Of a DNA stretch of 17,228 nucleotides, positions 43-4,493 are shown piece by piece. Under the pieces are notes generated by a model that saw nothing but the letters and a program-made list of their open reading frames with translations, ran no database searches and was not told the DNA's origin. This DNA is from Candidatus Yonathbacteria bacterium CG17_big_fil_post_rev_8_21_14_2_50_43_9 (GTDB lineage: Bacteria; Patescibacteriota; Minisyncoccia; Phycocordibacterales; UBA1550), in NCBI GenBank assembly GCA_002771015.1, contig PCUO01000035.1:30322-47549 (forward strand), given 5' to 3'. How positions within the stretch are numbered: the stretch's first letter is position 1; every line of letters starts with the position of its first letter. The position numbers and the translations under genes were made by a program.

Positions 43-573
43 CTAAAATATAGCCATTTTGCGCCATTTTGCTCGAAATATACTTATCGAAACATGCAAG
101 TTCTCGCCCTCTCCTCGCTTGGTCGTGTCAGAATCGTGGTAGTAAAATCTCGTCACAGCACCATCCTTTTCCTCAAATCCCGTAAGTATGACCATATGAA
201 ATTTATCATCTTCTTCAAAATTCTTTACAGCAGACACGACTACAGGTCTTCCAGAACGTAGCTCTGAAATCAAAAAATTAACTCCTTCTTCATTTAGCTC
301 ATCAGCAGTTTTTGATTCTGATTGTCTCCACTCATTGCGTGAAAGCTTTACTCTATACTGTCTGGCGAGAGCAACAAGTCCGTCATGCTTCCATCCGTAC
401 TCTCCATGCGCGCCTATTGCGCATCCTTGCGTTATCATTTCATCCAGAGTTGGAGCTCGCTCTGTCTTCGCTTCAATAAGCATTTTCAAACACGCCACTC
501 CGCACGCGCGCGGTTGCCACAATTCGTCTATAACATCTAGATATTGAGAATAATATGGGACAGAAATTTTCAT
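43..573 (-). CDS. C39-like cysteine peptidase domain protein
   Basis: This 176-residue protein resembles the C39-like (Peptidase_C39_2) papain-fold family. It opens with VPYYSQ, followed by Q20 and C24-G25 in RACGVAC, which fits an oxyanion Gln and a nucleophilic Cys. H126 (FHMVILTGF) and D147 (YYHDSD) would complete the triad. There is no signal peptide or membrane segment, so it is probably cytoplasmic unless exported another way. It is the last gene of the pheS-pheT run, 133 nt after the pheT stop. That gap is almost filled by an inverted repeat, and the likely ribosome site GGAAAT lies just outside the repeat arm. The true substrate is unknown; family members cleave peptides such as Gly-Gly leaders or act as general peptidases. 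The assignment rests on the motif order only. It is notable because the preceding gene, pheT, also carries a cysteine peptidase domain. Confidence 0.75.
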   Translation of the reverse strand: MKISVPYYSQYLDVIDELWQPRACGVACLKMLIEAKTERAPTLDEMITQGCAIGAHGEYGWKHDGLVALARQYRVKLSRNEWRQSESKTADELNEEGVNFLISELRSGRPVVVSAVKNFEEDDKFHMVILTGFEEKDGAVTRFYYHDSDTTKRGEGENLHVSISIFRAKWRKMAIF

Positions 574-706: not shown

Positions 707-3082
707 TTAGCGCACCTCTAGTCCTTTATCTAGAAGTTTCATTGTAATGCGTGACATTACTTCGTTTACTTCCGCATCTGAAAGAGTGCGTTCTTGCGAC
801 TGGAACACGAGATTAAATGCATAGGAAGTTTTTGAGTCTTTTGTAAACACATCAAAGAGTCTGTCGCGAACAAGAAGCTCCGCCCCCTCCGCTCTAATGA
901 TTTTATTAATTTCATCTTTTGTTACATTTGTAGGTGCCCACATTGCGATATCGCGAAGTACAAACGGGTACACTGAAATCCTTTTGTAGGGAGCGCTTGC
1001 TGATGATGAAATTAGCAGATCATATTTTCCGCATTCAATTTTGCGCACGGGAAGCGTACATTCCCACACACTCCCCTCTTCACCCCATGAAACTGGTGTA
1101 CCTAGGGCGTCTTCAACCGCTTTATGCGCTTGAAGTAAAATTTTGCGTTCCATCTCTATCTTTGCAGACTGCTTCATATTTTTTGTAACATTCGCGCCAA
1201 CAGAAATGTGTATGGATTCCTTCTCCGGCGCAAAAAATACGGTGCCAATTTCAAACATCAAAATTTCATCCACGCCAAGGAGTGGCGCATTGCGAGCGTT
1301 AAACACAAGAGCTTCTTTCATTCCGTCTGCTAAATTATCACGGAGAAAATTAACTCCTTCCGCCATAGGATTCATGAGCCCAACTTTCCCTTCTTTGCGG
1401 AATGCATAGGTGAAAATTTCTGAGAAGCCAAGTGATGCGAGCGCGTTGCGAACTTTTATTGTTGCACCATACGCATCATTATGCGCAGGTTTAAATCCAT
1501 CGTCAGGAAGTGTTGCGACAGGAATTTTGTTGTATCCAATGAGCCGAGCAATTTCTTCTGCAATATCTGCAGGAATACGAATATCAAAACGCTCGGCTGG
1601 AGCAACAACTGAAAACCGCTCCTCATTGATTGTAGGAATTCGTCTCGCTCCGGTGTTATTTTTGAAACGAGGGCTGTCAGCAAGTTTTTCTATGAACACA
1701 CCGCCTGCTTCTCCGACACTTTTATTGTAGCGTGAAGCGTGCGCTATCATTCCATCGCCGATATACACACCCACATGATCAATCCCTTGCTCGTGGACCT
1801 TAGTTCCTTTCATCCATTCAATGCTCTCGTGATATATTTCACTACCTTCATTCACTGAAAAAATAAGATCTCCAGTTTGAAGCGCGTCAAGTGATACTTC
1901 TTCTCCAAATACATATTGATCCACTGAGATACGTGGAATTTTTATTCCTGCTTCCAGATATAGATACGTGGCGAACCCAGAACAATCAAATTTATTTGGC
2001 GCGTCAAAACGCACACTAGCGCCATAAAAATATGGAGTGCCGATTAATTCCTTTGCGCGAAGTGCGATTTTTTCTGCGGGATTTTTAATTTTCTCGTACT
2101 CAAAACCAAGTCTGATAAGGTCTCGCTCGAGATCCTTTTCTGAATATGAAATACCCAGAGTGCGAGCAATATCATTTGGAGACATGCTCACACGATACGA
2201 ATTTGCTGGTCGCGGGTACATATCAACAACCTCCCCAGCTTTCGCATATGGAAAAATTTCTAAAAGAAGCTCTGTGGCACGCTCCATTGCAATAGGCGCA
2301 ATCTCCGGCGCGCGGTTATGCTCAAACCTACGAGAGGAATCCGTGCGAATATTTACATAGGCGGACGCCTTGCGCACGAGCGCCGAATTAAAAATTGCGG
2401 ACTCTAGCACGATAGTGTTTACTTTTTCGCCAACGCCCGCATGTGCGCCTCCCTTCACACCGGCAATTGCGAGCGCGCGGGAAGTGTCAGTAATTACCGC
2501 AACGCCTTCGGGAAGCGCGATATCTTTACCATCAAAAGTTTCTATTTTTTCTCCTTTGTCCGCATTACGAACAATAATTTTGATTTCTCCATTTGAACCG
2601 CGAGAAAGCATGTCGGCATCAAATGCGTGCATAGGCTGTCCGAGCTCAAGCATCACAAAGTTGGTCACATCAACAATAGCGTTTATGCTTCGCTGTCCAA
2701 CTGCCTCCAGAGCCTCCTTGAGCCACGCAGGCGACTCCTTGCCGTCGACACCCTCCACTACACGACCAACATACCGAAGGCACGCCTTGGGCTCATGTAT
2801 CTCAACATTTAATTTAGATTTAATCTCAGACGTAGAAACTTTAGGAGAAAAAGTTTTTAGTTTTGCATCGCTAAACACAGCGACCTCGCGCGCTAGCCCC
2901 ACATATGAAAGCAGGTGCCCTCGGTCGGGAGTAATTTTCAATTCAAAAATAGTGTCGTCGCCTTTTTTCTCAACACCTTCAACTTCGCAAATATGTGTGA
3001 GTAAAATATCAGAAAGCTTGTCTGTAGGAGGGAGCTTTTCCACATATCGTGAAAGATTTTTATATGATGTGAAAATATTCAT
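707..3082 (-). CDS. pheT: Phenylalanyl-tRNA synthetase beta subunit with inserted NlpC/P60 domain
   Basis: This is the beta subunit of the cytoplasmic (alpha-beta)2 enzyme that charges tRNA-Phe. Domains in order: a B1-like N-terminus (about 1-75) without the usual OB-fold tRNA-binding insert; the B3/B4 editing domain (about 92-260); B5 beginning near 296 (YRVSMSPNDIARTLG) and resuming near 489 (FSVVAPAERFDIRIPADIAE); a catalytic-like core; and a C-terminal FDX-ACB anticodon-binding domain (about 703-791). Residues about 334-485 break up B5 and form a full NlpC/P60 (C40) peptidase domain. It has FDCSGF with C367, GIDHVGVYIG with H436, and H448 in MIAHAS as the probable third residue. The reading frame is uninterrupted, so this is a fusion and not a frameshift. 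The start codon follows the pheS stop after a single base, indicating translational coupling. At 791 residues the length resembles E. coli PheT by coincidence: one domain is lost and another gained. Confidence 0.95.
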   Translation of the reverse strand: MNIFTSYKNLSRYVEKLPPTDKLSDILLTHICEVEGVEKKGDDTIFELKITPDRGHLLSYVGLAREVAVFSDAKLKTFSPKVSTSEIKSKLNVEIHEPKACLRYVGRVVEGVDGKESPAWLKEALEAVGQRSINAIVDVTNFVMLELGQPMHAFDADMLSRGSNGEIKIIVRNADKGEKIETFDGKDIALPEGVAVITDTSRALAIAGVKGGAHAGVGEKVNTIVLESAIFNSALVRKASAYVNIRTDSSRRFEHNRAPEIAPIAMERATELLLEIFPYAKAGEVVDMYPRPANSYRVSMSPNDIARTLGISYSEKDLERDLIRLGFEYEKIKNPAEKIALRAKELIGTPYFYGASVRFDAPNKFDCSGFATYLYLEAGIKIPRISVDQYVFGEEVSLDALQTGDLIFSVNEGSEIYHESIEWMKGTKVHEQGIDHVGVYIGDGMIAHASRYNKSVGEAGGVFIEKLADSPRFKNNTGARRIPTINEERFSVVAPAERFDIRIPADIAEEIARLIGYNKIPVATLPDDGFKPAHNDAYGATIKVRNALASLGFSEIFTYAFRKEGKVGLMNPMAEGVNFLRDNLADGMKEALVFNARNAPLLGVDEILMFEIGTVFFAPEKESIHISVGANVTKNMKQSAKIEMERKILLQAHKAVEDALGTPVSWGEEGSVWECTLPVRKIECGKYDLLISSSASAPYKRISVYPFVLRDIAMWAPTNVTKDEINKIIRAEGAELLVRDRLFDVFTKDSKTSYAFNLVFQSQERTLSDAEVNEVMSRITMKLLDKGLEVR

Positions 3083-3083
3083 A

Positions 3084-3821
3084 TTAGAATTGATTTACCA
3101 AACGTAAGTCGCCAGCGTATAGGAGGCGAACATCTTCAATGCCGTACTTTGTCATAACAAGTCTATCAACGCCCATTCCAAACGCAAACCCGCTGTATTT
3201 GCGCGGGTCAATACCGCTTGCATGCAAAACATTTGGATGCACCATCCCTCCACCCATTACTTCAATCCATCCGGACTTTTTACATACGTTGCATCCCATC
3301 CCTCCACAAAGAAAACACGATATATCAATTTCAACTCCAGGCTCAACAAACGGGAAAAAACTTGGACGCATGCGCATTTTCACATTTTCCCCGAAAAGAT
3401 TTTTAAAAAATGTTTCAAGAGTTCCTTTAAGTCCGGCCATTGTGACATCCTCACCAACAACAAGTCCCTCAACTTGATGAAATTGAGTCTCGTGAGTGGC
3501 GTCTGTTGCTTCGTAGCGAAAAACCTTTCCAGGAACTACGATGCGAAGTGGGGGTTTGTTCTTTTCCATATAACGAATCTGCACGGGCGATGTATGTGTA
3601 CGGAGCACTGTTTCCTTTACCCCTTTAATCCAAAAAGTGTCCTGCATATCGCGCGCTGGATGATCCTTTGGCACATTGAGCGCATCAAAGTTGTAGTGCT
3701 CAGTTTCTATCTCTGGCCCAAGCGCGACCTCAAAGCCAAGCTCCGCAAAGATACGCACTATCTCGTCCATCGTTCGCGTAAGCGGATGAATATGCCCTAT
3801 ATTCTCCTTCGTTTCCTCCAT
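3084..3821 (-). CDS. pheS: Phenylalanyl-tRNA synthetase alpha subunit (short form)
   Basis: This is the catalytic alpha subunit of Phe-tRNA synthetase (class II), which forms Phe-AMP and transfers Phe to tRNA. Class II motif 1 lies around [20 protein letters not shown]. Motif 2 and the Phe pocket lie around the segment with [14 protein letters not shown]. Motif 3 is [13 protein letters not shown] with R220. A four-cysteine cluster (C169, C172, C177, C180) precedes [14 protein letters not shown], as in many bacterial PheS. The protein has only 245 residues against about 330-350 usually, because the N-terminal tRNA-binding coiled coil is absent. The upstream frame hits TAG within two codons, so the gene is not simply mis-started. 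A promoter ends 9 nt before the ATG, so the mRNA is probably leaderless. The gene runs directly into pheT. Confidence 0.95.
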
Positions 3822-3868: not shown

Positions 3869-3886
3869 AGTGAGATTTTTCTCACT
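3869..3886. other. Small hairpin overlapping the sortase stop codon
   Basis: AGTGAG (3869-3874) and CTCACT (3881-3886) are perfect 6-bp arms around ATTTTT. The TGA stop of the sortase gene (3882-3884) lies in one arm. No clear T-tract follows on the minus strand, so the hairpin may mark the 3' end of the sortase message but is a weak terminator call. Confidence 0.35.
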
Positions 3887-4493
3887 CTATATCGGCAAAC
3901 ACCACGAGGCGATTAGAGTAACTCTTTAAATTTTTATTCCAGACACCCTGACAGGTCACAAGATTAAGGTGAGCTTTCCCATCGCTTGATCCAAATACAT
4001 TAGAGGCGTCTGCGTTTTGGTCATATGACTTTATTTCACGCACCACAAACGTGGTCGAAACACCGCTTTCACCATACGTATATATTTTGTCTCCAATTTT
4101 TAATTTGTGCAAATTATCAAATACCGCAGGTATCCCATTTTTCCAACCAAAGTGCCCGGATATGACCGCACTTCCCTCTTCGCCTGGACGTGGACCGAGA
4201 TTAAACCATGCAGTAGTCATGGGACCTTTTGGTATATCCATTTCACCACCATCAGTGACTCCAACATCCTCAATAACAGAATTAACATTGAGAATAGGAA
4301 TTGTCAGACGGATTGGTAACTGAGAACGTTCTTCTTCTGTTTTTGAAATAATTATATTTCCAGTAGTCTGCACAGAGTAATTTTGAAATGGAGCCCTTAT
4401 ACTAGGAAGAAAAATGAGCGCAGGCGAAACCACTAACCCCCCGACTGCGGCTGTAAATAGTGTTCGCTTTGAGCGGATTTTTGGTAATTTCAT
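3882..4493 (-). CDS. Sortase family transpeptidase
   Basis: Sortases cut LPxTG-type signals and join surface proteins to the cell wall or to each other. This 203-residue protein has an N-terminal basic stretch and membrane anchor (about 10-30, AAVGGLVVSPALIFLP), then a sortase fold. All three catalytic residues are visible: H114 in SGHFGW, C181 in NLVTCQG and R195 in YSNRLVV. The size and the single N-terminal helix fit the small non-class-A sortases (class D/E/F-like); the class cannot be fixed by eye. It lies just downstream of a gene ending in an LPNTG signal, which is the obvious substrate. A strong hairpin terminator sits 22 nt upstream of its ATG, so expression may depend on read-through or on a promoter I could not identify. 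No Shine-Dalgarno sequence is visible. Confidence 0.9.
   Translation of the reverse strand: MKLPKIRSKRTLFTAAVGGLVVSPALIFLPSIRAPFQNYSVQTTGNIIISKTEEERSQLPIRLTIPILNVNSVIEDVGVTDGGEMDIPKGPMTTAWFNLGPRPGEEGSAVISGHFGWKNGIPAVFDNLHKLKIGDKIYTYGESGVSTTFVVREIKSYDQNADASNVFGSSDGKAHLNLVTCQGVWNKNLKSYSNRLVVFADIE

Follow-up and report, generated by a model that had tools for sequence, protein, structure and literature searches.

The window, by which we mean the whole 17,228-nucleotide stretch of Candidatus Yonathbacteria DNA analysed here, encodes on its minus strand both subunits of phenylalanyl-tRNA synthetase (PheRS). The α subunit gene, pheS (3084–3821, minus strand; Pfam tRNA-synt_2d, 343.9 bits), lies directly 5′ of pheT (707–3082, minus strand), which encodes a 791-residue β subunit of a short type without the N-terminal EMAP/B2 domain. 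This short form fits the accessible part of a published account, according to which many CPR PheRS β subunits lack the B2 domain (PMC5370408). The next gene 3′ of pheT (43–573, minus strand) encodes a C39-like cysteine peptidase of 176 residues (Peptidase_C39_2, 41.3 bits; Pfam cut-off 24). A perfect 22-nt inverted repeat (583–604 and 682–703, with 77 nt between the arms) sits between pheT and the C39 gene and is either MITE-like or a long hairpin. Just upstream of pheS, a sortase gene (3882–4493, minus strand) lies near two genes for ice-binding-like proteins (PF11999; 4569–5750 and 6191–7510, both minus strand), the second of which also has a peptidoglycan-binding domain. A scan of the window for promoters and terminators yielded nothing useful.

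The window PheT shows the domain order B3/4, B5, CLM and FDX-ACB in Pfam, and scores 414.1 bits with the NCBIfam pheT_bact profile (cut-off 402.65). Its B3/4 editing domain (residues 100–277; 2252–2785, minus strand) was located by Pfam and alignment and keeps His152 and Glu227, which we take to be the editing-site residues. The FDX-ACB anticodon-binding domain, also recognised by Pfam, spans residues 703–787 (722–976, minus strand). The B5 domain, on the other hand, is split by an insert. Its first half (about residues 296–333; 2084–2197, minus strand) aligns with insert-less PheTs, and its second half (residues 486–517; 1532–1627, minus strand), which begins at a conserved EERF boundary, is the sole part matched by the Pfam B5 profile (positions 34–67 of 67). 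A whole-genome search found no other PheT match in this genome. Given that this is the only copy and that the other domains are retained, the protein presumably still charges tRNAPhe together with PheS; the two B5 halves would close around the insert, and the synthetase would keep working.

The insert (residues 334–485; 1628–2083, minus strand) had been described in a first-pass annotation, made from the sequence alone, as a complete NlpC/P60 domain with one cysteine and two histidines, and a profile scan had been proposed as a check. The scan gave a Pfam NlpC/P60 match of 63.7 bits (curated cut-off 23), structure comparison identified a papain-like C40 fold, and the alignment agreed with both. 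The catalytic residues are Cys367 (1982–1984), His436 (1775–1777) and, as the third, His448 (1739–1741), all encoded on the minus strand. Over 107 fused proteins (P0001 and P0003–P0108), the cysteine is present in 106, the first histidine in 105 and the second in 103, and all three are kept in 102. The corresponding counts for 80 aligned standalone proteins, described below, are 80, 79 and 78 (P0313, a PheT fragment, was left out of that alignment). One fused protein, P0074, has all three residues replaced together, and its domain is still recognisable, as in a natural inactive variant.

The first-pass annotation had also raised the concern that the fusion might be a chimeric assembly join, and the window genome is indeed fragmented (41 contigs). 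However, a search of 5.8 billion proteins returned the combined architecture in 107 proteins among the best 120 of 160 matches (P0002–P0108). One of these, P0002, is the window's own cluster, with 10 member sequences from 9 contigs; the other 106 are separate database proteins. Among the matches listed, the lowest identity of a protein with this architecture, over the region searched, is 38%, and those for which an organism name is shown belong to Patescibacteria lineages. Within the order, 68 of 397 genomes gave a single match that spans the insert without a change of frame, among the matches listed, where such matches come first. The 68 include G003, whose first 56 positions are missing at a contig end; four further genomes are partial or unclear (G345, G223, G094 and G006, the last split over two contigs). 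Titled GTDB records searched with the insert profile gave 36 loci, of which 31 are PheT-type frames and five have the standalone form; Yonathbacteria, Nomurabacteria, Campbellbacteria, Lloydbacteria, Taylorbacteria, Zambryskibacteria, Vogelbacteria and Wolfebacteria are represented. Because the same architecture recurs in so many proteins, genomes and named records, an assembly chimera is refuted, its chance being practically nil.

In an alignment of 91 PheTs, 59 with and 32 without the insert, the insert occupies the B5 hairpin turn in 59 of 59. Its dN/dS (Nei-Gojobori) is 0.05–0.16 over six close pairs, and that of the flanks in the same pairs is 0.13–0.20; the remaining five of 11 pairs were left out, as their insert dS was saturated. 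Across 101 full-length fused proteins, pairs share on average 52% identity in the insert, 53% in B3/4 and 44% in the C-terminal part. The insert matches PheT's own domains in conservation and is under purifying selection.

The insert is patchy in its presence, yet its retained copies are under strong constraint. On the best tree of the PheT body, built with the insert left out, the insert label needs 17 changes, at least 12 of which are forced by supported branches. G002, a genome of the same genus without the insert, is the sister of insert-bearing G010 on this tree, and its PheT keeps the boundary remnants ESIV..EERF, which we read as an in-frame loss. Such a loss with remnants suggests that the insert can be shed. 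The patchy distribution and the apparent loss in G002 would both suit a peptidase with an unrelated job that was inserted by chance and stays because its loss must be in frame.

Many genomes of the order without PheT have a PheRS of about 382 residues that combines a PheS core with FDX-ACB and is mitochondria-like (Pfam, NCBIfam; for example L127:2760–3908). Among 80 genomes searched, which were chosen because PheT was missing or odd (G029 was added), 46 gave a full-length monomeric PheRS match. In 10 of the 46, a frame of 206–239 residues consisting of a B5 half, NlpC and the other B5 half adjoins the monomeric PheRS gene, seven times in tandem and three times divergently; the two genes overlap by four bases in C7867-005. 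For each of the ten frames, the whole PheT profile gives a better score than the NlpC profile (for example, 240 vs 185 bits). In the other 36 genomes, nothing matched the standalone NlpC query. That query drew 93 database matches, the weakest being ordinary C40 proteins; about 80 are of B5-NlpC size, and three of these are named PheRS beta chain by their source. A single-sequence structure prediction of the standalone form had a pLDDT of 35. Since standalone sequences are nested among fused ones at two or more supported points of our trees, the B5-NlpC unit most likely outlived PheT more than once, with the direction depending on a weakly supported root.

A second fused lineage was found outside the window's class. 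Among 379 genomes sampled across the phylum, eight (G421, G527, G588, G548, G703, G558, G498 and G491) encode a full-length PheT of 929–970 residues with a C40 domain in the same B5 hairpin. Pfam, applied to four of the eight, recognised tRNA_bind, B3_4, NLPC_P60, the second part of B5 and CLM, with FDX-ACB in three. The eight inserts group together in a single clade (100/99), and its position with respect to the short type is ambiguous on the tree. Cys and the first His are present in 8/8, the third residue is His in six and Asp in two, and the PR motif is absent. A YkuD L,D-transpeptidase with PG_binding_4 is the next gene 3′ in six of seven insert-bearing loci with downstream sequence (L259–L261 and L263–L265, but not L262; L258 falls outside the seven), a count made on insert-bearing loci alone.

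C40 is retained with both B5 flanks next to PheRS in genomes that have lost PheT, at two or more points of the tree, and the second lineage uses the same hairpin; both observations speak against a chance passenger. A further standalone type with B5-like flanks (G414, G677, G642, G674, G689 and a second copy in G029), for which the fetched flanks held no PheRS, would suit it. On balance, we consider a passenger unlikely.

The genomes without PheT bear on the suggestion of the first-pass annotation that the insert could regulate PheRS. Because a separate B5-NlpC gene persists where no PheT was found, regulation of PheT by a covalent domain is not the whole story. A broader version, with PheT cleaved by NlpC or C39 or with PheRS under the cis control of the domain, draws on the embedding of C40 in PheT and on the adjacency of two peptidase genes, but it fits poorly with a C40 unit that survives without PheT, and no conserved cut motif was seen at the insert boundaries apart from the EERF edge. 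Furthermore, C40 enzymes are generally known to act on short peptides with D or γ bonds. BcYkfC illustrates this preference in the accessible part of its description (PMC2954226). Processing or regulation in cis is thus very unlikely as an account of the insert.

A role in proofreading or deacylation, with the C40 site hydrolysing the ester of mischarged, D- or N-blocked aminoacyl-tRNA from PheRS, would explain why the domain is located on this enzyme and why it persists beside a monomeric PheRS that itself lacks B3/4. However, the fused PheTs keep their cis-editing residues (His152 in 106/107 and Glu227 in 98/107), which argues against a replacement editing domain; moreover, 36 of the 46 monomeric genomes do without a recognisable standalone unit, and the insert pocket resembles those of C40 peptidases. 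G117 is also at odds with this role, in that its PheT has no B3/4, yet the contig that carries its standalone NlpC gene is not the one with its pheST. We therefore regard proofreading as quite unlikely. Neither a replacement of lost cis-editing nor, as the main idea, the trans-editing-like hydrolysis named among the possibilities in the first-pass annotation is supported. The G117 PheT (L217:2484–3716) is 411 residues long with an uninterrupted B5, and frames of similar length (396–445 residues) occur in G142, G396, G093, G154, G194 and G226.

Among genomes with the insert, 30 of 47 have a C39 peptidase gene within 1.5 kb 3′ of pheT and on its strand, vs 1 of 17 among those without (Fisher p 3.4e-5, kinship ignored), leaving 17 of 47 insert-bearing genomes with none within this distance. 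The comparison started from 66 genomes, from which G027 and G327 were set aside because too little sequence follows pheT. The sequence is also short in G032 and G118, which were retained since C39 was found, and without both the figure is 28/45. An independent-pairs test gave about 5 pairs on supported branches, 3.6 concordant and 0.5 opposite, which is not significant. Among the neighbour clusters listed, C39 occurs at 19/31 NlpC-bearing loci, 1/20 insert-less PheT loci and 0/9 monomeric loci without NlpC, and it adjoins B5-NlpC in 6/10 monomeric loci. A few other neighbour clusters (for example 9/1/1 and 7/1/0) look, in our own reading, antisense to housekeeping genes. A whole-genome search of 80 chosen genomes gave strong C39 matches (at least 150 bits) in ten NlpC-bearing genomes and in insert-less G157, and weaker ones in G020, G031, G348, G058, G160 and a second copy in G042. 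No C39 match was found anywhere in 14 of the 24 NlpC-bearing genomes of this set, whose choice had in part favoured genomes lacking C39 next to PheRS. The C39 residues Gln10, Cys24 and His126 are kept in 40/40 copies, with D or E at position 147 in 40/40; in database proteins, the first three are kept in 109/113, 112/113 and 113/113, respectively.

In one genome, G041, a cyclodipeptide synthase gene (L172:3946–4641, minus strand; PF16715, 34 bits) lies between pheT-NlpC and C39 and abuts both. Cyclodipeptide synthases use aminoacyl-tRNAs. This arrangement, striking but single, would accord with a small-molecule or peptide pathway dependent on aminoacyl-tRNA, in which a peptide derived from Phe-tRNA would be modified or broken down by NlpC and C39. 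However, a match to the cyclodipeptide synthase family was found in just 15 of 397 genomes, and among 16 such loci, inspected over about 1.5 kb on each side, G041 alone has PheT-NlpC or C39. A general partnership with cyclodipeptide synthases is unsupported, and we judge a Phe-tRNA-derived peptide pathway distinctly unlikely. The PADLOC defence models gave no match at E 0.01 for C39, B5-NlpC or PheT-NlpC. In viral contigs, 52 loci with C40 relatives contained no C39 and no PheRS match, nor any PheT match beyond the NlpC region worth naming (best 2.8 bits).

The residues around the active site offer some indication of the substrate. In the accessible part of its description, the S1 pocket of BcYkfC for γ-D-Glu is formed by Tyr226, Trp228, Asp237, Ser239 and Ser257; Arg255 belongs to the network, and selection of a free N-terminal L-Ala is aided by Asp256 (PMC2954226). 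We mapped these residues onto the insert by motif spacing and one alignment gap. By this mapping, Tyr226, Asp237 and Arg255 correspond to Tyr351, Asp366 and Arg384, each kept in 105/107 fused proteins, Ser239 to Ser368 (94/107; Ala in 13) and Ser257 to Ser386 (84/107; Thr or Ala in 19). Four of the five S1 residues are therefore largely kept, but Trp228 is mostly replaced (Tyr353; Tyr in 54/107, otherwise mixed), and Asp256 corresponds to Ile385 (Ile or Met in 98/107). A YkfC-type enzyme would also use Tyr118 of an SH3b domain for the free N-terminal L-Ala, and SH3b had no Pfam match in P0001. Since Trp228 and Asp256 are replaced, and in agreement with the missing SH3b match, we rejected a YkfC-type γ-D-Glu-DAP recycling peptidase. 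The retention of the other pocket residues rather suggests a pocket better suited to an N-terminally blocked γ-D-Glu-type peptide than to a protein or an aminoacyl-tRNA.

The substrates may differ among lineages, because one C40 subgroup has Ser in place of Asp366 and Arg384 and the PR motif is missing from the full-length lineage. In that subgroup (the standalone proteins of G240, G171, G328, G365 and G117), FSC replaces FDC, PS replaces PR, and DK or EK replaces DQ, with the catalytic Cys kept; judging from these motifs, it probably has another substrate. Wall-precursor synthesis is plausible in these genomes, as Mur-ligase matches occur in 80 of 80 chosen genomes and mraY matches in 76, all 76 below the curated cut-off. 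A lack of wall synthesis in insert-bearing genomes, considered as an argument against a murein substrate, accordingly found no support, and the idea of a murein substrate survives.

Taken together, we tentatively favour, with a probability of about 0.4, the reading that the insert is a catalytically competent, cytosolic accessory C40 hydrolase of PheRS that acts, with C39, on a small, probably murein-type peptide. As part of PheT, the domain would reside in the cytosol. The YkuD gene that follows PheT at most loci of the second fused lineage counts in favour of this reading. The functional idea of the first-pass annotation thus holds in so far as an intact, probably intracellular C40 peptidase is carried by an essential synthetase, with trans-editing-like hydrolysis unsupported as its main role. 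In the favoured reading, the Cys367-His436-His448 site would hydrolyse a small peptide-type substrate, and the neighbouring C39-like peptidase, judging from its co-occurrence, may act in the same pathway. Carrying C40 on PheRS would place peptide turnover at the translation machinery and, speculatively, might couple it to phenylalanine supply. More broadly, and just as tentatively, PheRS in Patescibacteria may be the platform of an undescribed C40 and C39 module that links the translation machinery to cytosolic turnover of peptides or cell-wall precursors. Such a module may be selected in its own right, given that B5-NlpC stayed beside monomeric PheRS after the synthetase parts of PheT were lost, and that a second lineage of the phylum has C40 in the same hairpin.

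These observations suggest that C40 enzymes could operate on the translation machinery, inside the cytosol. The in-frame loss in G002, the triple active-site loss in P0074 and the escape to a separate gene provide natural experiments, and the system makes it testable whether amino-acid charging in these small bacteria is tied to the metabolism of peptides or of the cell wall. The C39 gene at 43–573, the standalone form and the second fused lineage go beyond what the first-pass annotation contained. That annotation knew of no earlier description of the fusion, and our search of the open full-text literature, including work on Patescibacteria and CPR PheRS, likewise found none for a PheRS with an inserted NlpC/P60 domain. 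In the accessible part of a review of papain-like peptidases, the sole mention of a synthetase is in the reference list (PMC10318531), and the accessible parts of two CPR papers do not mention PheT-NlpC (PMC6744442 and PMC5370408). Databases already list proteins of the PheT-NlpC type under either name.

Synthetases often gain extra domains, but we know of none in which the fold of an essential subunit houses a cysteine peptidase of the cell-wall type. Compared with bacterial PheRS β (PheT; TIGR00472), the window protein shares B3/4, B5, CLM, FDX-ACB and the adjoining pheS, but lacks EMAP/B2 and has a 152-residue C40 domain in the B5 hairpin. With C40 DL-endopeptidases (C. difficile Acd24020, 7cfl; CwlT-type enzymes; BcYkfC, 3h41; MepS), the insert has in common the fold, the triad and most residues of the γ-D-Glu pocket. 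Unlike these enzymes, it is carried inside a tRNA synthetase subunit, and it has four additional residues ahead of FDC and a conserved ESxEFxxGTK loop preceding the first His; unlike BcYkfC, it does not keep Asp256. The monomeric PheRS of Parcubacteria falls just under the cut-offs both for monomeric mitochondrial PheRS (TIGR00469; 248.9 bits, cut-off 258.35) and for the PheS-related mystery ligase SrmL (NF051887; 261 bits, cut-off 300), for which the papers listed in a literature search were unrelated. It differs from both in that, in ten genomes, it is the sole match to the monomeric query and is adjoined by B5-NlpC. The C39 protein shares with single-domain Peptidase_C39_2 peptidases (PF13529) the family match and the Gln-Cys-His-Asp/Glu residues, but it represents a distinct family of about 170–240 residues, with strong matches in NlpC-bearing genomes and G157 among the 80 genomes searched for it. 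To our knowledge, the combination of PheRS, C40 and C39 matches no known system; the synthetase and its accessory domain each belong to a known family.
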